Source of the DNA: Streptomonospora mangrovi
GTDB taxonomy: Bacteria > Actinomycetota > Actinomycetes > Streptosporangiales > Streptosporangiaceae
Length of the DNA: 64,000 nucleotides
Assembly (NCBI RefSeq): GCF_027604915.1
Contig: NZ_JAJAQC010000003.1
Coordinates: 186,001 to 250,000 of the forward strand
Direction: 5' to 3'
This document shows positions 51,316-64,000 of this stretch, piece by piece. The notes beneath the pieces are model-generated. The model did no database searches. It had not been told where the DNA came from and was given only the letters and a program-made list of their open reading frames with translations. The translations under genes and the position numbers were made by a program. The first letter of the stretch is position 1; every line of letters starts with the position of its first letter.

Positions 51316-52299
51316 TTGGCGAAGTTCCTGATCAGGAGACTGCTCAGCTCACTCATACTGGTCTTCCTGGCGTCGAGCCTGGCCTACCTCCTGGCCGCCA
51401 CCACGCTCAGCCCGCGCTCCAACTTCGAGCAGCAGCAGCCGCCGCTCAGCGCCGAGGCGATCGAGCGCGAACTCGACCACCTCAACCTCAACGACCGCAC
51501 CCCGCTCGCCGAGCGCTACGCGACGTGGCTTTCCGGTGTGGTGGTCGGTGATTTCGGCCAGACCATTACCGACCAGAGCGTCAACGAGCACATTGCCAGA
51601 AAAGCCGGGGTCACCCTGCGGCTGATCGTGGTCGGCGCGGTCATCGGCGCCACTTTGGGCGTGGCCGTCGGCGCCTACTCCGCGGTGCGCCAGTACCGCG
51701 CCTTCGACCGGGCCTCCACCGTGGTGGCGTTCTTCCTGCTGGCCGTGCCCACCATCGTGATCGCCGTGGTCCTCCAGGTCACCGCGGTGTGGATCAACGA
51801 CGTCACCGGCCGCCAGCTCCTGGAGTACGGCGGCGAGTACACCGCCAACCTCGACGCCGGGTTCTGGGGCACCCTCGCCGACCGCGTCCAGCACGCCATC
51901 CTGCCCACGCTTACCCTGGTGCTGTCGCTGTTCGCCGCCTTCAGCCGCTACCAGCGCAACATGATGCTCGACGTGCTCGCCTCGGACTTCGTGCGCACCG
52001 CCATGGCCAAGGGCCTCACCCGGCGGGCCGCCCTGTTCAAGCACGCGCTGCGCACCGCCATGATCCCCACCATCACCTACTTCACCTTCACCTTCGGCAT
52101 CCTCATCGCCAACGCCACCTTCACCGAGAAGGTGTTCGGCTGGCACGGCATGGGCGCCTGGGTCGTGGACTCCATCGTGACCAACGACGTCAACGCGGTG
52201 GCCGCCGTCACCTGCTTCATGGCCGTGTGCGTGATGGCCGCGTCGTTTCTGTCCGACGTGCTCTACGCCTGGCTCGACCCCCGGGTGCGGGTGAGCTGA
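51316..52299 (+). CDS. ABC transporter permease, DppB/OppB type
   Basis: The 327-residue protein is the first permease of a peptide/nickel-type importer. The N-terminal FLIRRLLSSLILVFLASSLAY helix, a short extracytoplasmic segment, and the binding-protein-dependent permease domain from about residue 95 to 320 are visible. The EAA loop shows as FVRTAMAKGLTRRAALFKHALR near residue 230. TTG at 51316 is the only in-frame start that keeps the conserved N-terminus, preceded by GTAGGGG. It heads an operon of permease, permease, fused ATPase and binding protein. Confidence 0.9.
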   Translation: MAKFLIRRLLSSLILVFLASSLAYLLAATTLSPRSNFEQQQPPLSAEAIERELDHLNLNDRTPLAERYATWLSGVVVGDFGQTITDQSVNEHIARKAGVTLRLIVVGAVIGATLGVAVGAYSAVRQYRAFDRASTVVAFFLLAVPTIVIAVVLQVTAVWINDVTGRQLLEYGGEYTANLDAGFWGTLADRVQHAILPTLTLVLSLFAAFSRYQRNMMLDVLASDFVRTAMAKGLTRRAALFKHALRTAMIPTITYFTFTFGILIANATFTEKVFGWHGMGAWVVDSIVTNDVNAVAAVTCFMAVCVMAASFLSDVLYAWLDPRVRVS

Positions 52300-52384
52300 C
52301 CGTGCCCACCGCTTCCGCGTCCCCGCGCCCGGCCGGCCCCCCGGCCGCGGCGCCCCGCTGCCGCCCGGCGTTGGAGGAGATCCC

Positions 52385-53290
52385 GTGAGCATCGCAACCG
52401 AGCGCGAGGCCCAGGCGCCCGACGACATCCCCCCGGCCATCACCGGCCGCTGGTCCTCGCTGGCCAAGGAGGTCCTGGGCACCCCGCGCGTGGTCGTGGG
52501 CCTGGTGATCATCGGCGCCCTGGTGCTCATGGCCTGGATCGGGCCGCTGTTCAGCCCGTGGGAGTTCGACGAGCGCGACTTCTTCGCGTTCCGCAGCCCG
52601 CCCTCGGCCGAGCACTGGTTCGGCACCAACACCACCGGGCGCGACGTCTTCCACATGACCATGGTGGGGCTCCAGCGCTCCATCGTGATCGGGCTGTGCG
52701 CGGCCGTGGCCACCACCGTGGTCGCCGCGATCGTGGGCGCCTTCGCCGGCTACTACCTGGGCCCCACCGACCGCGTGCTGATGTGGATCACCGACCTCTT
52801 CCTGGTGCTCCCGCAGTTTCTGATCCTGGCGATCCTCTACCCGGTGCTGCGCGGCTCGGAGTGGCCCGTCTTCGTCATCCTGCTCGCGGGGCTGATGTGG
52901 ATGGTCACCGCCAAGATGGTGCGCGGCATGACCATCTCGCTCAAGGAGCGCGAGTACGTGCTGGCCGCCCGCTACATGGGGGTCAGCAGCGGGCGCATCA
53001 TCCTGCGCCACATCCTGCCCAACATGTCGTCGCTGCTGATCGTCGACATCACCATCAACGTCAGCGGCGCCATCATCCTGGAGACCGCGCTGTCCTACTT
53101 CGGATTCGGCGTGCAGCCCCCCGACGTCACCCTGGGCTCCCTCATCGCCGAGGGATCGCGCCAGGCCCTGGCCTTCCCGTGGACCTTCTGGTTCTGCACC
53201 GGGCTGCTCATCCTGCTCGTGCTGGCGGTCAACCTGGTCGGCGACGGCCTGCGCGACGCCCTTGACCCGCACTCCAGGCGCAGGAGCTAG
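52385..53290 (+). CDS. ABC transporter permease, DppC/OppC type
   Basis: The 301-residue second permease has the DppC features: an N-terminal helix near residue 40, then HWFGTNTTGRDVFHMTMVGLQ near residue 77. The permease domain carries the EAA loop EREYVLAARYMGVSSGRIILRHI near residue 195 and the terminal VNLVGDGLRDALDP. GTG 52385 follows GGAGGAG. It lies 85 bases after the DppB-like gene and ten before the ATPase gene. Confidence 0.9.
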   Translation: MSIATEREAQAPDDIPPAITGRWSSLAKEVLGTPRVVVGLVIIGALVLMAWIGPLFSPWEFDERDFFAFRSPPSAEHWFGTNTTGRDVFHMTMVGLQRSIVIGLCAAVATTVVAAIVGAFAGYYLGPTDRVLMWITDLFLVLPQFLILAILYPVLRGSEWPVFVILLAGLMWMVTAKMVRGMTISLKEREYVLAARYMGVSSGRIILRHILPNMSSLLIVDITINVSGAIILETALSYFGFGVQPPDVTLGSLIAEGSRQALAFPWTFWFCTGLLILLVLAVNLVGDGLRDALDPHSRRRS

Positions 53291-53299
53291 AGGGGAACC

Positions 53300-55432
53300 A
53301 TGACCGCCACCACCGCCCATGCCCACGGCGACGCCGCGCGGCCCGACGGCACCGACACCCCGGTCCTCCAGGTCACCGACCTGGAGGTCACCTTCCCGGG
53401 CACCCGCGGCAGCCCCGACGTCACCGCGGTGCGCGGCGTCAGCTACGAGCTGCGCCGCGGCGAGATCCTGGGGATCGTGGGGGAGTCCGGGTCGGGCAAG
53501 TCGGTGTCGTCGCTGGCCGCCATGGGCCTGCTGCCCGACTACGCCCGCGTGAGCGGCTCCATCCGGCTGCACGGCGAGGAACTGCTGGGGCTGGACGACC
53601 GCGCCATGGCCGCCAAGCGGGGCCGGGCCATCGCCATGGTCTTCCAGGACCCGCTGTCGGGGCTGACCCCGGTCTACACCGTCGGCGACCAGGTCGCCGA
53701 GGCCGTCCGCGCGCACAACCCCCACTTCGGCAAGGCCGCCGCGCTGGCCCGCGCCGTCGAGCTGCTCACCCTCGTGGGCATCCCCGACGCCGAGCGGCGG
53801 CACCGCTCCTTCCCCCACGAGTTCTCCGGCGGCATGCGGCAGCGGGTCATGATCGCCATCGCGATCGCCAACGACCCCGACGTCATCATCTGCGACGAAC
53901 CCACCACCGCGCTCGACGTCACCATCCAGGCCCAGATCCTGGAGGTCCTCAAGACCGCGCAGCGCGAGACCGGCGCCGCCATCCTGATGATCACCCACGA
54001 CCTGGGCGTGGTGGCCGGCCTGGTCGACCGCGTGCAGGTCATGTACGCCGGGCGGCTGGTCGAGACCGGGCCCGTCGACGACGTCTACTACCGCACCCGC
54101 ATGCCCTACACCATGGGCCTGCTGGGCTCGGTGCCGCGCCTGGACCAGGACGACAAGACCCCGCTCATCCCCATCGCCGGCAGCCCGCCCTCCCTCACCG
54201 ACATGCCGCCCGGCTGCCCGTTCGCCCCGCGCTGCCCGCTGGCCGTCGAGGCGTGCACCCAGGCCGAGCCCGCGCTGGAGCAGGTCGGCGCGCCCGGCCA
54301 CCGGGCGGCCTGCGTCCGCGCCGGCGAGATCCAGGCCAACGGCTGGACCGCGCGCGACGTCTACCCCGTGCCCGAGATCGGCGACCCCCCGCAGGCGGCG
54401 GTCCCGCGCGAGGACCGCACCACCGTGCTGGAGGTCGAGAACCTGGTCAAGCACCACCCGCTGACGCGCGGCGCGCTGTTCAAGCGGCGGGTGGGCACCG
54501 TCTACGCGGTCGACGGCGTCAGCTTCGACATCCGCGAGGGCGAGACCCTGGGCCTGGTGGGGGAGTCCGGCTGCGGCAAGACCACCACCCTGCTGGAGAT
54601 CCTCAGCCTGGACCGCCCCCAGAGCGGGGCGGTGCGGGTGCTGGGCACCGAGTCCGGCCGGATCGGCGGGCGCGAGCGCATGCGGGTGCGGCGCGACATG
54701 CAGGTGGTGTTCCAGGACCCGATGAGTTCGCTGGACCCCCGCATGCGGGTCTTCGAGATCGTCGCCGAGCCGCTGCGCACCCACGCCTACCCCAAGGACA
54801 GGCTCCAGGCGCGCGTCATCGAACTGCTGCGGCTGGTCGGCCTGGAGGCCGAGCACGCCGCCCGCTACCCGGCCGAATTCTCCGGCGGCCAGCGCCAGCG
54901 CGTCGGCATCGCGCGGGCGCTCGCGCTGGAGCCCCGGCTGATCGTGCTGGACGAACCCGTCTCGGCGCTGGACGTCTCGATCCAGGCCGGGGTGGTCAAC
55001 CTGCTGGACGACCTCAAGGCCCGGCTCGGCCTGGCCTACCTGTTCGTCGCCCACGACCTGTCGGTGGTGCGCCACATCGCCGACCGCGTGGCGGTGATGT
55101 ACCTCGGCAAGATCGTGGAGATCGGCGAGGTCGCCAACCTGTACCGGCACCCCACCCACCCCTACACCCAGGCGCTGCTGTCGGCGATCCCGCTGCCCGA
55201 CCCCGAGAAGGAGCGGCGGCGGTCCCACATCGTCCTGGAGGGTGACCTCCCCAACCCCGCTGACCCGCCCTCGGGGTGCCGCTTCCGCACCCGGTGCCAG
55301 AAGTTCGCCGTGCTCGGCGAGGAGGAGCGCACCGCGTGCCGGGAGCGCGAACCGGAACTGCGGCGCCGCGTGGAGGGCGCGGCCGACCAGGCCGCCGCCT
55401 GCCACTACGCCGAGCGGCAGGAGCCCCTGTGA
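53300..55432 (+). CDS. ABC transporter ATP-binding protein with two fused ATPase domains (DppD-DppF)
   Basis: The 710-residue protein fuses both ATPases of an oligopeptide importer. The first domain (about residues 20-350) has Walker [12 protein letters not shown], signature [17 protein letters not shown], Walker [15 protein letters not shown], and the C-terminal Cys-rich [15 protein letters not shown] motif of DppD. The second (about 375-705) has [44 protein letters not shown] and a matching GCRFRTRCQ motif. Each Cys cluster probably binds an iron-sulfur centre or stabilises the fold. Fusion saves a gene compared with separate DppD and DppF. It is ten bases after the permease gene. Confidence 0.92.
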
Positions 55433-55494
55433 CCGTCGGAGGGCCGATCGCGCCCACCCGATCCCCCAGGAAAGTGATCAGTGAGGAGACTCCC

Positions 55495-57216
55495 GTGCGG
55501 ATGAGACGCGCCGCCAAGCTCGGCGCCCCCCTCGTGGTCCTGGCCCTTGCGGCCAGTGCCTGCGGCGGTGGCGGCGGAGACGAGGGGAACGAGAACCAGG
55601 AGACCCTGGCGGACATCCCCGCCATCGACATCAACCAGACGGACCGCGCCGACCTCCAGGAGGGCGGCACCTTCCACTGGGGGATCAACGAGTTCCCGCC
55701 GCAGTACCAGGTGCACCACACGCAGGGCAACCTCGCCAACGCCGAGCGGATCGCCTCGGCCGTGCTGCCCCAGGCCCACAACTTCGACGAGAACGGCGAC
55801 CCGTACCCCAACGAGGACTACGTCCTCTCCAGCGAGATCAGCGACGACGGGATGACGCTCACCTTCGAGCTGAACCCCGACGCCGAGTGGTCCAACGGCG
55901 AGCCGATCACCTGGGAGGACTACGCCGCCCAGGTCGAGACGGTCGGCGGGCACCGCGACAACGACAGCGAGTTCGAGATCGGCGACAAGTCCGGTTACGA
56001 GCGGATCGGCGACGTCGAGCAGGGGGACGACGAGTACGAGGTGATCTTCCACTTCGACGAGCCCTTCGCCGAGTGGCCGCGCCTGTTCGACGCCCTGTAC
56101 CCCAAGGAGTACATGGAGGACCCGGAGCGGTTCAACGAGGACTACGAGCTGGCCTTCCCGGTCACCGCCGGGCCGTTCGGCGACGTGGAGTTCGACGAGA
56201 CCGCGCAGACCATCACGGTCAACCGCGACGACAACTGGTGGGGCGAGCCCGCCATCCTCGACTCGATCGTGTTCCACACCTACGGCAACGACGCGCTGCC
56301 CGGGGTGATGAACAACGGCGAGATCGACGGCTTCTACCTGGGCTACGACGCCGCCGCCTACGAGCTGCTGAGCGACGCCGAGGGCGTGCGCCTGACCAAG
56401 GCCATCGACAACGCCTACCGGCACATCACCTTCAACGCCGGTGAGGGCCGCCTGCTGGCCGACCGCGAGGTGCGCAACGCGCTCGTGCACGCCATCGACC
56501 GGTCGCAGATGGCCCAGGCCACGCTCAGCGGCGTCAACTGGACCACCGACCCCACGGTCAACCGGCTCATCCGCTCCACCCAGACCGGCTTCCGCGACAA
56601 CAGCGAGGGCTTCGGCGAGTACGACCCCGAGCTGGCGGCGCAGATGCTGGAGGACGCCGGGTGGACCCTGGAGGGCGAGGGCGAGGTCCGGACCAAGGAC
56701 GGCGAGCGCCTCGAACTGGACTGGGTGATCCCCTCGGACCTCCAGAACACCGCCGACGAGGCGGAGATCGCCAAGGCGCAACTGGCGGAGGTGGGCGTGG
56801 CCGTCAACGTGGAGACGGTGCCGAGCAACTCCTACTTCCCGGAGTACATCGTGCCGGGCGAGTTCGACGCCACGACGTTCGTGTACTCCAGCACCAACCC
56901 CTACGCGGGGTACTTCGCCGAGAACTTCACCGGCCCGGTGGGCGAGGACGAGGACGGCAACCCCACCTGGGGCAACAACCTGCACTTCTCCTCCACCGAC
57001 GAGCTGAACGAGGCGTTCGACGAACTGTCGAAGGAGACCGACCCCGAGGCGTACGCGGAGAAGGCCAACGAGATCGACCGCATGCTGTGGGAGGAGAGCA
57101 TGGCGGTGCCGCTGTTCCAGCGGCCCGGCATCTACGCGGTGAACCCCAACGTCGCGAACTGGGGAGCCAACGGGCTCGCCTCCATCCAGTACACGGACAT
57201 CGGGTTCGTGGAGTAA
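55495..57216 (+). CDS. ABC transporter family 5 substrate-binding lipoprotein
   Basis: The 573-residue protein is the binding component. A signal ends in the lipobox LAASAC near residue 22, followed by a Gly/Asp/Glu-rich linker. The family 5 fold includes FEIGDKSGYERIGDVEQGDD near 165 and DRSQMAQATLSGVNW near residue 340. The late GRP region is replaced by VPLFQRPGIYAVNP. GTG 55495 follows GAGGAG by seven bases. The mature protein is very acidic, common in this family. Being last in the operon is unusual, as the binding protein is often first. Ligand is probably a peptide; opines, metals or sugars are possible. Confidence 0.9.
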   Translation: MRMRRAAKLGAPLVVLALAASACGGGGGDEGNENQETLADIPAIDINQTDRADLQEGGTFHWGINEFPPQYQVHHTQGNLANAERIASAVLPQAHNFDENGDPYPNEDYVLSSEISDDGMTLTFELNPDAEWSNGEPITWEDYAAQVETVGGHRDNDSEFEIGDKSGYERIGDVEQGDDEYEVIFHFDEPFAEWPRLFDALYPKEYMEDPERFNEDYELAFPVTAGPFGDVEFDETAQTITVNRDDNWWGEPAILDSIVFHTYGNDALPGVMNNGEIDGFYLGYDAAAYELLSDAEGVRLTKAIDNAYRHITFNAGEGRLLADREVRNALVHAIDRSQMAQATLSGVNWTTDPTVNRLIRSTQTGFRDNSEGFGEYDPELAAQMLEDAGWTLEGEGEVRTKDGERLELDWVIPSDLQNTADEAEIAKAQLAEVGVAVNVETVPSNSYFPEYIVPGEFDATTFVYSSTNPYAGYFAENFTGPVGEDEDGNPTWGNNLHFSSTDELNEAFDELSKETDPEAYAEKANEIDRMLWEESMAVPLFQRPGIYAVNPNVANWGANGLASIQYTDIGFVE

Positions 57217-59276: not shown

Positions 59277-60893
59277 TCAGTCGGTGCATGCCGTCAGGGG
59301 GACGAGGTCGCGGCGGCCCTCGCCATCGGGTGCGCCGAGGTAGCGGGCGCCGGTGGCGGTGCGGGAGACCGACTCCCATCCCGTCGAGCCGCCGAAGGCC
59401 CATCCGGCGAGGACGGCGTCGGCGGTGAACTCCCTGCCATCCGTGTCGACGGCGTACCGGACGGTGCTGTAGGTGGCCTCGGCGTGCAGCAGCCGGTCGA
59501 AGTCGCTGACCGGCACGCCGCTATCCCCGCCTCCACCGGCGTCGGTGCCGGCGCCCTGGTCGACCCGCGGGTCGGTGACGTCCTTGGGGCGGCCGGTGGT
59601 GGAGAGGAAGGACAGGGCGAGCAGCGGCTCCCCGCCCTCCAGCCAGGCGCGGACGGTCGCGCGGTTGGCGTCGGTGACCTTCAGGCGTGCCGTGCCCTCC
59701 GTCTGGCCGTGCTCGTCCTCGGCGTTGACGACCTGGATGGCGACCTCGGTCAGGCGCCCCGTCCGCCGGTCCCGGGTGGTGGTGAGGGCGGCGCTGACGA
59801 GCCGGTCGCTGGCGTTTTCGGGGGTGAGGACGGAACGCGGCACCAGGCGGCCGACCTCACCGGCCTCCTCGAAGGTGAACCCCACGGTCTCGGCTACGGT
59901 GCCGCGCCGCTCGTCGATCTCGCGGGAGACGTGCCCGCTGCCCTCGGCGCTCGCGGACACCAGGTGCAGCAGGTCCACGCCGCTGGCGACACCCTGCCCG
60001 CCCGGGCGCGGGTCGGCCCCGTCGGCGGAGGGGGCGGCCGGGCCACCCGCGCCGCCCGCGTCGGAGCGGTCGGGGTGGCCGGGGCGGCGCCCGCGCCCGC
60101 CCAGCGTGGCGCCCAGGTCTCCCGTGAGCCGCAGGCCGCCGTCGACCACGACCGCGCGGCGGTCGGGCGGGGGCAGGGCGCCGGTCCCGCCGCCGGTGCC
60201 GGCGCCGCCGCCGCCGGTGCCGGCACCGGCGCCGCCGCCTCCCAGGTGCTCCTCCAGCAGGCCGATGATCTGGGCGCCCACCGCGTCGAAGGCGCCGCTG
60301 TCCTCGGTCAGTTCCGCCAGGTGGACCGACCGGGCCACACGTTCGCGGAAGTCGGCGGCGGCGCGGCGGTCGGCGAGGGTCCAGGTCTCGACCGCCGTCA
60401 CTCCGCCGCGCACGCCCGCCGCGATACCGGCGTCGACCTCGGCGAGGTGCCCGACGCCGACGCCCCAGCGGAAGGGGCTCGGCAGGTCCGCGGCGGCGTC
60501 GAAGCCCCGGGCGAGGCTGACCTCCACGGTGCCGTCGGAGCTGACCCGCTCGGCGATCCGGACCTTGCCGCCGGGGGACACGGCCACAGAGACGCCGGTG
60601 GCCGCCGTCATGGCGGAGGAGCCGGTGGTGCAGCCCTGCGGGCGGAAGGCGGCGTCGCGGTCGGCGGCGGCGGAGTCGGCCGCGGCCGCGCCTGCGCCCG
60701 CGCCGCAGTCCGCGAGCCGCAGGACGGCGCAGACGGCGCGCTCGACCTCCGCCAGGACGCGCCGGCCGGGTTCCGTCGAGCCGGCCACGCCGATGAGCCC
60801 GACGGCCGCGCCCGCGACCAGGGCGACGACACCCGCGTACTCCAGAATTGCCCCGCCGCGCTCGGCACGGAGGGGTCGGCGGCACAGTGCCAT
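59277..60893 (-). CDS. Large uncharacterised protein with Flp/TadE-type prepilin leader
   Basis: The 538-residue protein starts MALCRRPLRAERGGAILEYA. A basic leader is followed by RG-GAILEY, with Glu five residues after the putative cleavage Gly, and a single hydrophobic helix AGVVALVAGAAVGLIG: the class III (Flp/TadE) prepilin pattern. The rest (about residues 60-538) is a secreted domain with no recognised fold. It contains a low-complexity Gly/Ala/Thr linker around residues 220-245 and a second Gly/Asp/Ala linker near 445. Five cysteines are visible, one at the very end. I prefer ATG 60893 to an earlier in-frame Met at 60968. It is the last gene of a minus-strand surface cluster. Confidence 0.75.
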   Translation of the reverse strand: MALCRRPLRAERGGAILEYAGVVALVAGAAVGLIGVAGSTEPGRRVLAEVERAVCAVLRLADCGAGAGAAAADSAAADRDAAFRPQGCTTGSSAMTAATGVSVAVSPGGKVRIAERVSSDGTVEVSLARGFDAAADLPSPFRWGVGVGHLAEVDAGIAAGVRGGVTAVETWTLADRRAAADFRERVARSVHLAELTEDSGAFDAVGAQIIGLLEEHLGGGGAGAGTGGGGAGTGGGTGALPPPDRRAVVVDGGLRLTGDLGATLGGRGRRPGHPDRSDAGGAGGPAAPSADGADPRPGGQGVASGVDLLHLVSASAEGSGHVSREIDERRGTVAETVGFTFEEAGEVGRLVPRSVLTPENASDRLVSAALTTTRDRRTGRLTEVAIQVVNAEDEHGQTEGTARLKVTDANRATVRAWLEGGEPLLALSFLSTTGRPKDVTDPRVDQGAGTDAGGGGDSGVPVSDFDRLLHAEATYSTVRYAVDTDGREFTADAVLAGWAFGGSTGWESVSRTATGARYLGAPDGEGRRDLVPLTACTD

Positions 60894-61053
60894 GGCAAGC
60901 CTCGCAAAGACAACGACCGCGGCAGGTGCGGTCGGGAACAGTGCGGTCAGGCCGGAGGAGCCAGGCACAGGTCGGCGGCGCGATCACCGCACAGCCGCGC
61001 GGGGACGATGCCGGGCACGCCGTCACAGCGGGCGGCGGGGCTGGGCATCGGTG

Positions 61054-61905
61054 CTAGGGCGCGGTCACCGTCTCGTCGGTGCTCCAGTCGGTCAGGGTCA
61101 GGGCGAACCAGCGGTTCTGCAAGCCCGTGCGGTCGGGCGGAAGGTGCTGGTAGTACACGAGCGGCCGGTTGGCGTCGTCCACCCACAGTTCGACGTCGAC
61201 GGCGGCCTCGCCGAGGCCCATGTCGACCAGGGTGGTGTACTCGCTCCGGGCGAAGCCGACCGCGTGCTCCCGGAGATCGTCGATGTAGGCGGTTCCGCGC
61301 CAGTGCGCGGTGGGGGTGCCGTGGACCTCGACCGCGTCCACGAGGCGGAGGTCGGTGCTGACGGCCAGCGCGGCCGTGATGTGCGAGCAGTTGGCGCCGC
61401 GCGCGGCGGTGAGGTCCGGCAGGTAGTCGGAGGGGACGTCGGCGGCGCGGTAGTCGTCGCCCAGGGGCCAGAAGTCGCCGCCGGAGGCGCTGTGCAGGCC
61501 GTCGTCGGTGGCGACCGATCCGCTGGCCTGGACGTCGGCGGCGGAGGTCTCGTCGCCGTCGTAGTCGCGGCCGGGGACGAAGTCGGGCTCCAGCACGTAG
61601 CGCGTCGCGTCGCCCTCGACGCGGTAGACGCCCGAGCCGTCGCCCGAGCAGCTCAGCCGCCCGCTGTTGAGGACGGCCATGCCGCTGCTGTCGAAGCTCT
61701 GCAACCGCCACGCCGCGGAGTCCTCGGCGTCGAGCGCGGCGGTGACGGCGTCGGCCAGCTCGGTCCGGTCGGAGGCGTCGCCCGGGGTGGGCACGGCCGA
61801 GCCCTGCGGCTCAGGCGCCCCGGAGGCACCCACGCAGGCGGACAGCGCCGCGACGCACACCGCCGCCGCCGTGCCGGCGACCACCCGCCGCACCACGCGC
61901 GCCAC
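61054..61905 (-). CDS. Uncharacterised lipoprotein
   Basis: The 283-residue protein has a signal peptide ending in the lipobox ALSAC near residue 22, after a basic VARVVRRV start. The mature part is acidic, with a run of short strands (RLSCSGDGSGVYRVEGDATRY, AADVQASGSVATDD) and a C-terminal half containing VDVELWVDDANRPLVYYQHL, which recalls the LppX/LprG-like lipoprotein fold (DUF1396-like) only in outline. GTG 61905 follows AAAGGCG at seven bases. It lies between the two prepilin-leader genes on the same strand and should be anchored on the outer face of the membrane. Confidence 0.75.
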   Translation of the reverse strand: MARVVRRVVAGTAAAVCVAALSACVGASGAPEPQGSAVPTPGDASDRTELADAVTAALDAEDSAAWRLQSFDSSGMAVLNSGRLSCSGDGSGVYRVEGDATRYVLEPDFVPGRDYDGDETSAADVQASGSVATDDGLHSASGGDFWPLGDDYRAADVPSDYLPDLTAARGANCSHITAALAVSTDLRLVDAVEVHGTPTAHWRGTAYIDDLREHAVGFARSEYTTLVDMGLGEAAVDVELWVDDANRPLVYYQHLPPDRTGLQNRWFALTLTDWSTDETVTAP

Positions 61906-61997
61906 AATCGCGCCTTTCAACGCGTCTGCCGCGGCCACCGCAGTTCCGCCCACACACACACTCAGTCCGCGTATCCCGCGCATCCCACGTACCGCAC

Positions 61998-62660
61998 TCA
62001 CCCTTGCGGCACCCGCGCCTGCCCGACCCACAGCGACTCCCAGTGCGGGTTGCCGATCACCTGGGTGACGTTGACCGGGTTGCCGGCGTGCACCATCTGC
62101 CCGTTGCCGATGTACATGCCGACGTGCGTGGGCGGCTCCATCTCGGGCATGGTGTGGAAGAAGATCAGGTCGCCGGGCTGGAGTTCGCCCTTGGAGATGT
62201 TGGGCAGCGCCGCGATCTGGTCCCAGGTTGTCCGCGGAATACTCACCCCGGCCTCGCGCCACGCCTCCATCATCAGCGAGGAGCAGTCATACCCGCTGCG
62301 CCCCGTGGCCCCCCAGATGTACGGCTTCCCCTGCTGAGCCAACGCGAACGCCACCGCCACCCGCGCGTCCCCCTCGCCGCGAACCTCCCCGTCCCAGGTA
62401 CTGGAGAAGGTCCACACATACTCCTCAGGCTCCTCGGGCCGCTCATGCTCGACCCAGCTCTCACCCCCGCACTCGGGCCCCTCAACGCGACACACGTAGT
62501 CGCGGGTCGCATCGTGCAGCACATCGGCGATGGAGGAGGACGAAAGCCCGATCACGACCACAGCGGCAATGGAAACAAGAGCCGCCGTCTCCATAATCGA
62601 GGCCCCACGATCCCCCCGCCGCCCCCCAACCCGAGCCAACGGCGTCACGAACTTCCCCAC
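61998..62660 (-). CDS. NlpC/P60 (C40) peptidase with prepilin-like N-terminus
   Basis: The 220-residue protein combines two parts. Residues 1-45 have a basic leader, RG-ASIMET with Glu at position five after the Gly, and the helix AALVSIAAVVVIGL: a class III prepilin pattern. Residues about 100-218 are an NlpC/P60 domain with catalytic Cys in GRSGYDCSSLMMEAW, PGDLIFFH, the His in THVGMYIGNGQMVHAGN and the usual spacing. Such domains cleave D-Glu-meso-DAP bonds in peptidoglycan. Tethering one to a pseudopilin leader is unusual. The gene is 20 bases downstream of a secreted-protein gene in an apparent operon. Confidence 0.88.
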   Translation of the reverse strand: MGKFVTPLARVGGRRGDRGASIMETAALVSIAAVVVIGLSSSSIADVLHDATRDYVCRVEGPECGGESWVEHERPEEPEEYVWTFSSTWDGEVRGEGDARVAVAFALAQQGKPYIWGATGRSGYDCSSLMMEAWREAGVSIPRTTWDQIAALPNISKGELQPGDLIFFHTMPEMEPPTHVGMYIGNGQMVHAGNPVNVTQVIGNPHWESLWVGQARVPQG

Positions 62661-62680
62661 CGGACCACTCCTTATCCGCC

Positions 62681-63250
62681 TCAGCCGACCGGGACGTCGT
62701 CGATCGGGTCAAAACCGGGGATCTCGACCGACACAGTGGTGGTGTCGGAGGGCACCCGGTAGGTCGTCCAGTAATCAGTGCTCTGGTTCGGCTCGATAAG
62801 CGGGTCATAGGGGGAGAGCGAGACGTACCCCGAGCAGAGGCAATTAGTTTCGGCGTCGATCAGCGGGTGGTGCCTGGTACTCGATGAGTTGTCGAGTAGA
62901 GTGACGCCGCTGAGGTGGGTGTGCCGATAGTCATAAACGGGATTTGAGAAGTTGTTGGCGTGAATGTTTTCCGTCCCGTTGTTGGTGATGCGTACCGTAA
63001 GGACGGTGAGTTCGCTGCTTTCTGAGCGGGTTAGCTCCAGAACTTCCGCCGTCGCCTCCGAAACGTTCTCGAGGTCACCGTTGCTTGTGGCCGTGCCGAG
63101 CGTTTGCGAAGGAGAAGCCCCTGGTGAGGCATGGGAGCCCTCCGGCGGGGAGGGTGTGGTCGCAGTCGCCGAGGCGGTTGAGAAAGGAACAACGAGTAGC
63201 GGGACCGCGATCACCGTCCAGGCCAGGCAGTGCACAATATGGCGTTTCAT
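62681..63250 (-). CDS. Secreted uncharacterised protein, paralogue of the neighbouring OmpA protein's N-terminal domain
   Basis: The 189-residue protein has a Sec signal (MKRHIVHCLAWTVIAVPLL, cleavage near ASATA at about residue 30) and a Ser/Pro-rich linker. A beta-rich domain with a CLC motif (ETNCLCSGYVSLSP) follows. The VTLLDNSSSTRHHPLIDAET and terminal GFDPIDDVPVG phrases align with VTLID-like, KHLPLLYED, CYC and APPIMDIPLTD in the OmpA-domain protein upstream. I use ATG 63250, nine bases after AAGGAAG, instead of 63256. Only eight to fourteen bases separate it from the OmpA gene. Base composition is much lower in GC than the rest of the window. Function unknown. Confidence 0.75.
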   Translation of the reverse strand: MKRHIVHCLAWTVIAVPLLVVPFSTASATATTPSPPEGSHASPGASPSQTLGTATSNGDLENVSEATAEVLELTRSESSELTVLTVRITNNGTENIHANNFSNPVYDYRHTHLSGVTLLDNSSSTRHHPLIDAETNCLCSGYVSLSPYDPLIEPNQSTDYWTTYRVPSDTTTVSVEIPGFDPIDDVPVG

Positions 63251-63264
63251 ATTCATGTGCTTCC

Positions 63265-64000
63265 TTATTTCGCGAAGGTTATCGTGACCCGGCGGTTTTT
63301 CGATCTCCCCTCCTCGCTGTCATTGTTGGCAATGGGTTGACCGGAACCGTGACCTGCCACTTCATAGGAGATCCCATCCTTCTCCACGAGTTCGGCCAAA
63401 GCATCACGTACAGCTCGCGCCCGGTCTTCGGAAAGCGGGACGTTGACGCTGTCGTTCCCGGTGTTGTCGGTATGGCCCTCCACGCTGACTGTCTGTGCGG
63501 AGGAACCGTCGATCTCTCTGGCGACTTGCTGGATGACCTCTTCCGCGGCTTTGTCGAGAGCCGATTCGTTGGTCTCGAACAGAACGTCCGAAGAAAGGGA
63601 GATCGCGACCTCTTCGGAGGTCTCCTCGCGCGTGGAGTCATCCTCCAATCCTTCCTGGAGGCTGCGCACATCCCATATTTGCGGCGGAGAAAGCCCCTGG
63701 GCCGGTTCCTCGACCCTCTCACCTGGAGAGTCAGTCAGGGGAATGTCCATGATCGGGGGCGCCGCGTAGGACATGAAGATCATGTGCTTAACACCGTCGG
63801 GCGGAGCTGGGAACGCGACCCACGCTCGCACCGACTCGCCAGGTGCGAGGGAGGTGTTGTTCCAGGACTCGCAATAGCAGGTGCCATCCTCGTAGAGAAG
63901 GGGAAGATGTTTCTTGCTGTTGCTGCCGTCGATCAAGGTCAAGGACTGAAGATCACCCGGTTCGTCGCCTTCCTGCGGCGGTGAATAGATGGATACGGAT
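63265..64000 (-). CDS. OmpA-domain cell-surface protein (5' end beyond the window)
   Basis: The frame is open to the right edge, so at least 244 residues of the C-terminal part are visible. Nearest the edge is a beta domain with KKHLPLLYEDGTCYCES and APPIMDIPL. An acidic linker follows, then an OmpA C-like domain: ISLSSDVLFETNESAL, VSVEGHTDNTGND, LSEDRARAVRDAL, GHGSGQPIANN and GRSKNRRVTITF. This domain binds peptidoglycan non-covalently through the Asp and Arg of the TDNTGN and NRRV segments. Actinobacterial Tad loci often carry such a protein. It is first in the visible cluster, and stops eight to fourteen bases before the next gene. Confidence 0.85.
   Translation of the reverse strand, partial: SVSIYSPPQEGDEPGDLQSLTLIDGSNSKKHLPLLYEDGTCYCESWNNTSLAPGESVRAWVAFPAPPDGVKHMIFMSYAAPPIMDIPLTDSPGERVEEPAQGLSPPQIWDVRSLQEGLEDDSTREETSEEVAISLSSDVLFETNESALDKAAEEVIQQVAREIDGSSAQTVSVEGHTDNTGNDSVNVPLSEDRARAVRDALAELVEKDGISYEVAGHGSGQPIANNDSEEGRSKNRRVTITFAK

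Follow-up and report, generated by a model that had tools for sequence, protein, structure and literature searches.

How does a pilus leave a bacterium through a thick cell wall? The question is raised by the right-hand end of a 64,000-nucleotide stretch of the Streptomonospora mangrovi genome (the window; contig NZ_JAJAQC010000003.1, positions 186,001 to 250,000), where an NlpC/P60 peptidase begins with a leader of the kind found on Flp pilins. We consider this peptidase, from its sequence and that of its relatives, to be probably a minor pilin of the Flp class, modular in build and part of a Gram-positive Tad machine, which would open the wall for the filament. It is encoded in a run of five genes.

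59277..60893 (from ATG), minus strand: 538-residue protein with Flp-type leader, domain unknown (reading frame, nine aligned relatives)
61054..61911, minus strand: lipoprotein with lipobox-like LSAC, accessory (Pfam scan without any family)
61998..62660, minus strand: Flp-class prepilin-like carrier with NlpC/P60 (C40) peptidase, 220 residues (PF00877, 4.6e-25)
62681..63256, minus strand: predicted secreted DUF5067-like protein, 191 residues, core member (PF16729, E 0.0013, below cut-off)
63265..64000, minus strand: OmpA-domain lipoprotein, C-terminal 244 residues in the window (PF00691, 3.4e-17)

All five genes are present as an earlier note on this DNA had described them, and so are the two RG-type prepilin leaders and the secreted paralogue of the OmpA N-terminal domain that it had read there. 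The paralogue is the DUF5067-like protein, which matches the OmpA protein by BLASTP (25% over 165 residues, E 1e-7). The window ends inside the OmpA gene; the complete gene is L007:6266-7333 and encodes 355 residues, with a lipobox-like N-terminus past the edge, and its product is predicted to be a peptidoglycan-binding anchor. L007 denotes C30:243000-262999, C30 being the contig of the window (C30:186001-250000) in a genome of 6.36 Mb and 121 contigs. A scan for promoters and terminators gave numbers close to those of shuffled sequences (promoter-like 1 vs 0.3 expected, on the other strand; terminator-like 4 vs 3.5).

The cluster runs off the window, and the tad assembly genes that the earlier note had expected past position 64000 were found there, in one same-strand run at L007 7397-14597 (C30:250396-257596); the TadA match starts 3.6 kb past the edge. 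In order of transcription they are as follows.

L007:13773-14597, minus strand: RcpC/CpaB (PF16976 over cut-off)
L007:12130-13770 (C30:255129-256769), minus strand: TadZ-type ATPase with a fused TadE-like C-terminus (AAA_31 over cut-off)
L007:11738-12103, minus strand: TadE (PF07811 over cut-off)
L007:10318-11670, minus strand: TadA (PF00437, E 2.8e-68)
L007:9330-10262, minus strand: TadB (identified only from position, size and conserved synteny)
L007:8408-9307, minus strand: TadC (identified only from position, size and conserved synteny)
L007:8077-8298, minus strand: Flp pilin, 73 residues (by position, size and synteny only; Pfam score under cut-off)
L007:7397-8056, minus strand: TadG-like protein (PF13400 over cut-off)

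The five window genes are transcribed next, and by their coordinates the intergenic gaps from Flp through the peptidase are 8-63 bases. On this gene content and order, the five window genes are part of a tad (Flp pilus) locus. A prepilin peptidase gene, also looked for, exists in the genome as a single PF01478 match over cut-off; it is unlinked, at C11:15628, and not in the tad locus.

The peptidase has the features of a Flp-class prepilin, namely a leader ending in Gly, a Glu at +5 and a hydrophobic helix. Its leader reads VGKFVTPLARVGGRRGDRG / ASIMETAALVSIAAVVVIGLSS (the slash separates residues -1 and +1); the Cys pair is CRVEGPEC and the catalytic domain spans about residues 100-215. The 538-residue protein begins with RPLRAERG / GAILEYAGVVALV, followed by C-x7-C and a large domain. 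Around the slash, the leaders of the locus are DKG/ASILEY in Flp, DRG/ASIMET in the peptidase, ERG/GAILEY in the 538-residue protein, DRG/SQILEF in TadE and DSG/ALFVEF in the TadZ-TadE fusion. When 27 proteins built on the N-terminal part of the peptidase (here called carriers; 18 with NlpC and 9 with SLT-like domains) were aligned, Gly(-1), Glu(+5) and both Cys residues after the helix were invariant in 27/27; the leaderless L076 had been removed beforehand and L117 was missed by the search pattern. A profile of the Flp-type N-terminus was also run over the whole genome, with 150 of 182 first-look candidates scored. At E <= 1e-4 it matched three places, which are Flp, the peptidase and the 538-residue protein, so the leader does not appear to be a widespread feature that landed here by accident. 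Six of the eight other NlpC matches of this genome were inspected, and none has the motif.

In the TadZ-TadE fusion the class III motif lies between the two parts, and cleavage there by a prepilin peptidase would split the fusion. By coordinates, the TadZ and TadE parts are in separate reading frames in L116, L117, L119, L120 and L126.

The enzyme domain scored 88.1 bits with PF00877 against a cut-off of 23, and the Cys-His-His triad, which we take to be its catalytic residues, is kept in 19/19 orthologues. These near full-length orthologues (E <= 1e-40) occur in 19 of 150 genomes of the family and in 11 of the 68 genera among these genomes. Eighteen of the 19 lie within a tad locus, downstream of the OmpA gene (18/18) and the DUF5067-like gene (18/18); an M23-type carrier stands between the peptidase and those genes in L073 and in L074, in the latter together with TadG. 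The conserved co-occurrence of the gene set, which the earlier note had proposed to survey, was seen for these three genes, and a relative of the 538-residue protein was present in 13/18 tad-linked loci (E <= 1e-3; several weak, one on the opposite strand). It was not seen for the lipoprotein, which occurs in 5/18 loci and was ruled out as a core member.

TadZ was detected at E <= 1e-60 in 44 of the 150 family genomes. All 19 peptidase genomes are among them, compared with 0 of the 106 TadZ-negative genomes (Fisher p 2.5e-12; by genus 11/24 vs 0/44, p 1.6e-6; the tests treat genomes or genera as independent, and kinship makes them not fully so). Because of the synteny in 18/19 loci and the confinement to TadZ-positive genomes, we ruled out chance adjacency to tad. 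Since the genome searches score part of the candidates (for instance, in the window's own genome 9/35 for TadZ, 17/172 for the carrier and 38/90 for the leader profile), weak matches may have been missed and the counts are lower bounds. The unlinked orthologue belongs to G067, in which the tad locus lies at C1:1.90 Mb and the peptidase at C1:5.10 Mb. This copy has no leader, and no carrier was seen in the usual slot of the G067 tad locus.

We then compared tad loci of the 25 TadZ-positive genomes without this NlpC peptidase, of which 19 were fetched (the G067 locus was fetched as well). Ten of the 19 have the same carrier in the same slot with an SLT/lysozyme-like domain (6 of the 10 were Pfam-scanned). 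The carrier is recognized in relatives by its leader, its helix and variants of CLVEGPEC and ETW..RPEEPEEY. Four further loci (L122-L125) have NlpC/P60 at the C-terminus of the TadG-like protein, with PF00877 in 4/4; the TadG part was matched by BLAST in 3/4 and by alignment in 4/4, and in L122 a further Flp-leader protein adjoins the fusion. In another four (G050, G060, G115, G135) the carrier is present outside the fetched stretch, and in G031 no carrier was found within its partial stretch.

The GTDB genome collection was scanned with two linker patterns that lie outside the enzyme domain. This gave 71 stretches, 43 of which encode a relative; these 43 named loci come from Streptomonospora, Nocardiopsis, Thermobifida, Marinactinospora, Allosalinactinospora and others. 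According to our own profiles, all 43 named carriers end in a hydrolase-type domain (11 NlpC, 32 SLT-like). Nocardiopsis suaedae (L137) has a second, extra carrier with Peptidase_M23 (2e-27), and L073 has a look-alike of this M23 carrier, by reading. At the level of the order, the carrier was found in 86/297 genomes at 1e-6, and by our count 68 of these at <= 1e-18.

By sequence, these proteins join a pilin module to a separate NlpC, SLT-like or M23 module, as modular pilins do. The strongest evidence for a wall-opening pilin is that domains of three predicted families (C40, M23 and lysozyme-like) appear to share one pilin base and one operon slot, with C40 also on TadG. The common denominator of the swapped domains is only that their families cut peptidoglycan, and such a variety of wall hydrolases borne by Tad pilins suggests a minor pilin that opens the wall. 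The earlier note had inferred a wall-opening role from the single locus; the exchanges among NlpC, SLT-like and M23 domains, together with the TadG-NlpC fusions, support that idea. In the mechanism that we propose, the unlinked prepilin peptidase would remove the leader, and the mature protein would join the filament tip or the first turns with TadE/TadG and perhaps the 538-residue protein. The enzyme, facing outward, would then cut the cell's own stem-peptide cross-links where the filament emerges. The OmpA lipoprotein and its secreted paralogue may anchor the machine to the wall, and with the enzyme tethered to the filament the cut would stay local.

Several points weigh against this proposal. 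The presumed catalytic Glu is lost in 26/32 named SLT-type carriers (L134-L169), where T, V, I, M, Q or L replaces it (four of these rows were read by eye). Named Nocardiopsis account for 24 of the 26 Glu-less records and 5 of the 6 Glu-keeping ones. The Glu is kept in 11/11 relatives of alignment A5, five of which are among the six Glu-keeping named loci. The Glu-less SLT-like domains appear to be either dead or using other residues; with the Glu lost, the domain may there only bind the wall, or its job may be lost, and it is possible that a pseudoenzyme has been kept in many Nocardiopsis. The SLT assignment is itself weak, with PF01464 over cut-off in 2/6, no Pfam family for the Glu-less domain of L134 and no convincing match of the SLT-like domain among solved structures (PDB). 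PF13400 is over cut-off in only one of the four TadG-NlpC fusions (L122). At the level of the class, the carrier profile matches 23/394 genomes, of which 22 belong to the same family and the 23rd is a weak match, and a full-length TadG-NlpC occurs in 1/394; a class-wide hydrolase pilin was ruled out on these counts. With the carrier almost restricted to one family, most Tad systems must manage otherwise. Leader processing, incorporation into the filament, wall cutting and tip location are also steps that we infer from sequence.

The same leader occurs on other large proteins of these bacteria, which raises the possibility of a weapon. In the 43 named loci the leader pattern gave 20 frames of more than 300 residues. 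Of 17 that were Pfam-scanned, 5 are pretoxin HINT proteins, 2 are calpain-like, 1 is Abhydrolase_8 and 9 have no family above cut-off; four of the five HINT proteins also have a toxin domain (deaminase, colicin/pyocin DNase, REase-3 or Cytotoxic). A leader frame was present in 11 of 20 further stretches, and the nine scanned comprise 2 HINT proteins (one in the same genus, G002), 1 calpain-like protein and 6 without a family above cut-off. The HINT proteins often have leaders like MLRRIHDPxRGASxxEY.

L131:12530-14227, L131:15251-16933, L138:3731-5797, L164:13287-14912: PT-HINT polymorphic-toxin-like proteins with Flp-type leader
L169:2335-4107, L263:1-2319, L269:1254-2855: further PT-HINT polymorphic-toxin-like proteins with Flp-type leader
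L165:14152-15465, L157:17024-18358, L258:1268-2566, L154:14882-16351: three calpain-like proteases and one Abhydrolase_8 protein with Flp-type leaders

A profile of such N-termini matched 45/150 family genomes, which are all 44 TadZ-positive genomes plus one 74%-complete genome; because Flp itself can match the profile, this overlap is partly trivial. Matches reach 32 in G012, 30 in G054 and 24 in G076. Among the matches listed, every one is in a TadZ-positive genome, most of those with long frames.

A pilus-borne weapon, in which the tip hydrolase cuts the walls of neighbours, alone or to admit toxins with the same leader, would fit these proteins, some of which are encoded less than 10 kb from the hydrolase carrier. 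NlpC, SLT and M23 domains also occur in antibacterial effectors. The Tad-like Kil system of Myxococcus, as described in the available portions of PMC8460266 and PMC12075869, kills by contact and makes local holes in the prey wall. However, a single gene in a core slot encodes the hydrolase carrier, whereas the toxin-like proteins are scattered and variable. In the window's own genome the profile search, with 150 of 182 first-look candidates scored, gave no leader-bearing toxin. We regard the weapon as unlikely for the peptidase. A broader idea, which we put forward tentatively and would not yet bet on, is that the family's Tad machine acts as a general launcher for modular pilins of the Flp class: the wall-cutting pilin would open the wall and the same leader would export variable cargo, making a Gram-positive, Tad-based, contact-dependent weapon. 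The proposed cargo would include the HINT-containing polymorphic toxins, the calpain-like proteases and the lipase-like enzyme. If confirmed, the leader-bearing toxins would represent Tad-based toxin delivery in Gram-positive bacteria.

The peptidase could also be a plain membrane-anchored wall hydrolase, held near the Tad machine by an uncleaved signal anchor and not a pilin, as a transmembrane helix would keep the enzyme in place. This we find quite improbable, since a conserved Glu opening the hydrophobic segment is unexpected for a mere anchor, Gly(-1) and Glu(+5) never vary among the aligned carriers, and the sole copy found away from tad (G067) lacks the leader. An ordinary wall-remodelling enzyme that happens to adjoin tad genes is hardly credible: the six genomes of the genus contain 8-13 NlpC matches apiece, but the probability that one falls by chance within 15 kb of tad is about 4% for each genome, against the 18/19 seen, and the peptidase is restricted to TadZ-positive genomes and bears a Flp-type leader.

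The wall-opening minor pilin has partial parallels in known systems. CwlT-type NlpC/P60 enzymes of Gram-positive conjugation systems probably open the wall for a machine that spans the envelope, and they are not known to carry a pilin leader. The closest solved-structure relatives of the NlpC domain include wall hydrolases of Tn916-like elements (PDB 4hpe, 9ubf), which resemble it as NlpC/P60 enzymes and differ from it in serving conjugative elements. We rejected membership of the peptidase in this CwlT-type group; its neighbours are tad genes and not a conjugation (type IV secretion) cluster.

Statements on the papers cited below refer to the portions available, except where the main text is named. 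Like the modular type IV pilins PilB and PilC of Streptococcus sanguinis (PMC8179133), the peptidase would be a minor subunit with a module on a pilin, a cleavable leader and Glu at +5. That survey covered proteins with the IPR012902 pilin domain, for which it names mainly binding functions and a single peptidase entry (IPR030392); unlike those pilins, a Flp-class pilin here bears a peptidoglycan hydrolase, with hydrolases replacing one another. The Kil Tad pilus of Myxococcus xanthus likewise has minor pilins with variable exposed domains and a TadG with a modular C-terminus, but it belongs to a diderm predator and its interchangeable Tips serve prey detection and killing (PMC12075869); the word peptidoglycan is absent from the main text of that paper. 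The tad locus of Micrococcus luteus is, as here, actinobacterial and includes TadA and a TadG-like protein (PMC8467076), and the main text of that paper does not contain the words NlpC, peptidoglycan or transglycosylase.

In S. sanguinis, according to a study from 2026, the hydrolase LytF raises the amount of competence (Com) pilus outside the cell; an active-site Cys mutant transformed as the deletion did, externally added enzyme was no help, and the authors suggested a possible association of the hydrolase with the pilus (PMC13192262). LytF resembles our peptidase as a wall hydrolase that promotes pilus exit from a monoderm cell. It differs in having Bsp repeats and CHAP, in not being described as a pilin and in serving the Com pilus and not Tad (PMC13192262). 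The association suggested for LytF would here be built in by gene fusion. A 2025 paper on Tad (PMC12307814) says outright that reports of a peptidoglycan hydrolase or lytic transglycosylase with the Tad pilus are lacking, and in the available portions of the literature searched we found neither a peptidoglycan-hydrolase pilin nor a Flp-leader toxin in actinomycetes. In those sources, modular pilins are known, as are Tad pili whose tips can be exchanged, whereas a hydrolase-bearing pilin was not found. The differing wall-cutting enzymes that related bacteria place on one pilin base suggest a route for a pilus through a thick wall, and a hydrolase grafted on a pilin in a tad operon would be a direct, testable answer to how an actinomycete pilus exits.

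The 538-residue protein shares the leader class with the peptidase. Pfam gave it no family over cut-off, and a comparison with PDB structures gave no convincing relative. Nine relatives align with it; the residues that never vary are Gly(-1), Tyr(+6), both members of the Cys pair and a Cys close to the C-terminal end. Across the 10 rows the Gly is kept in 10/10 and Glu(+5) in 8/10. The +5 residue is E in the window, D in L127 and G in L167 and L063, and the Glu is not conserved within the genus. GspK, the tip pseudopilin of type II secretion, is also without this Glu, and because of this likeness a tip position is possible for the 538-residue protein.

Some other genes in and around these loci were noted. 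In L128 a gene pair between TadC and Flp (L128:5219-7215) reads as a histidine kinase and a response regulator; among the tad loci that contain the NlpC peptidase, a TadC-Flp gap of similar size is present in 12/12 from outside the genus of the window and is not present in that genus. Directly upstream of rcpC, L007:14677-18063 encodes two paralogue-like proteins of 440-520 residues, whose tails are Pro-rich and which have a CxWCGEP...CxFC zinc-ribbon-like motif. Within the window, a plus-strand run at 51316-57216 reads as a peptide/nickel-type ABC transporter with two permeases, a double ATPase and a solute-binding lipoprotein.

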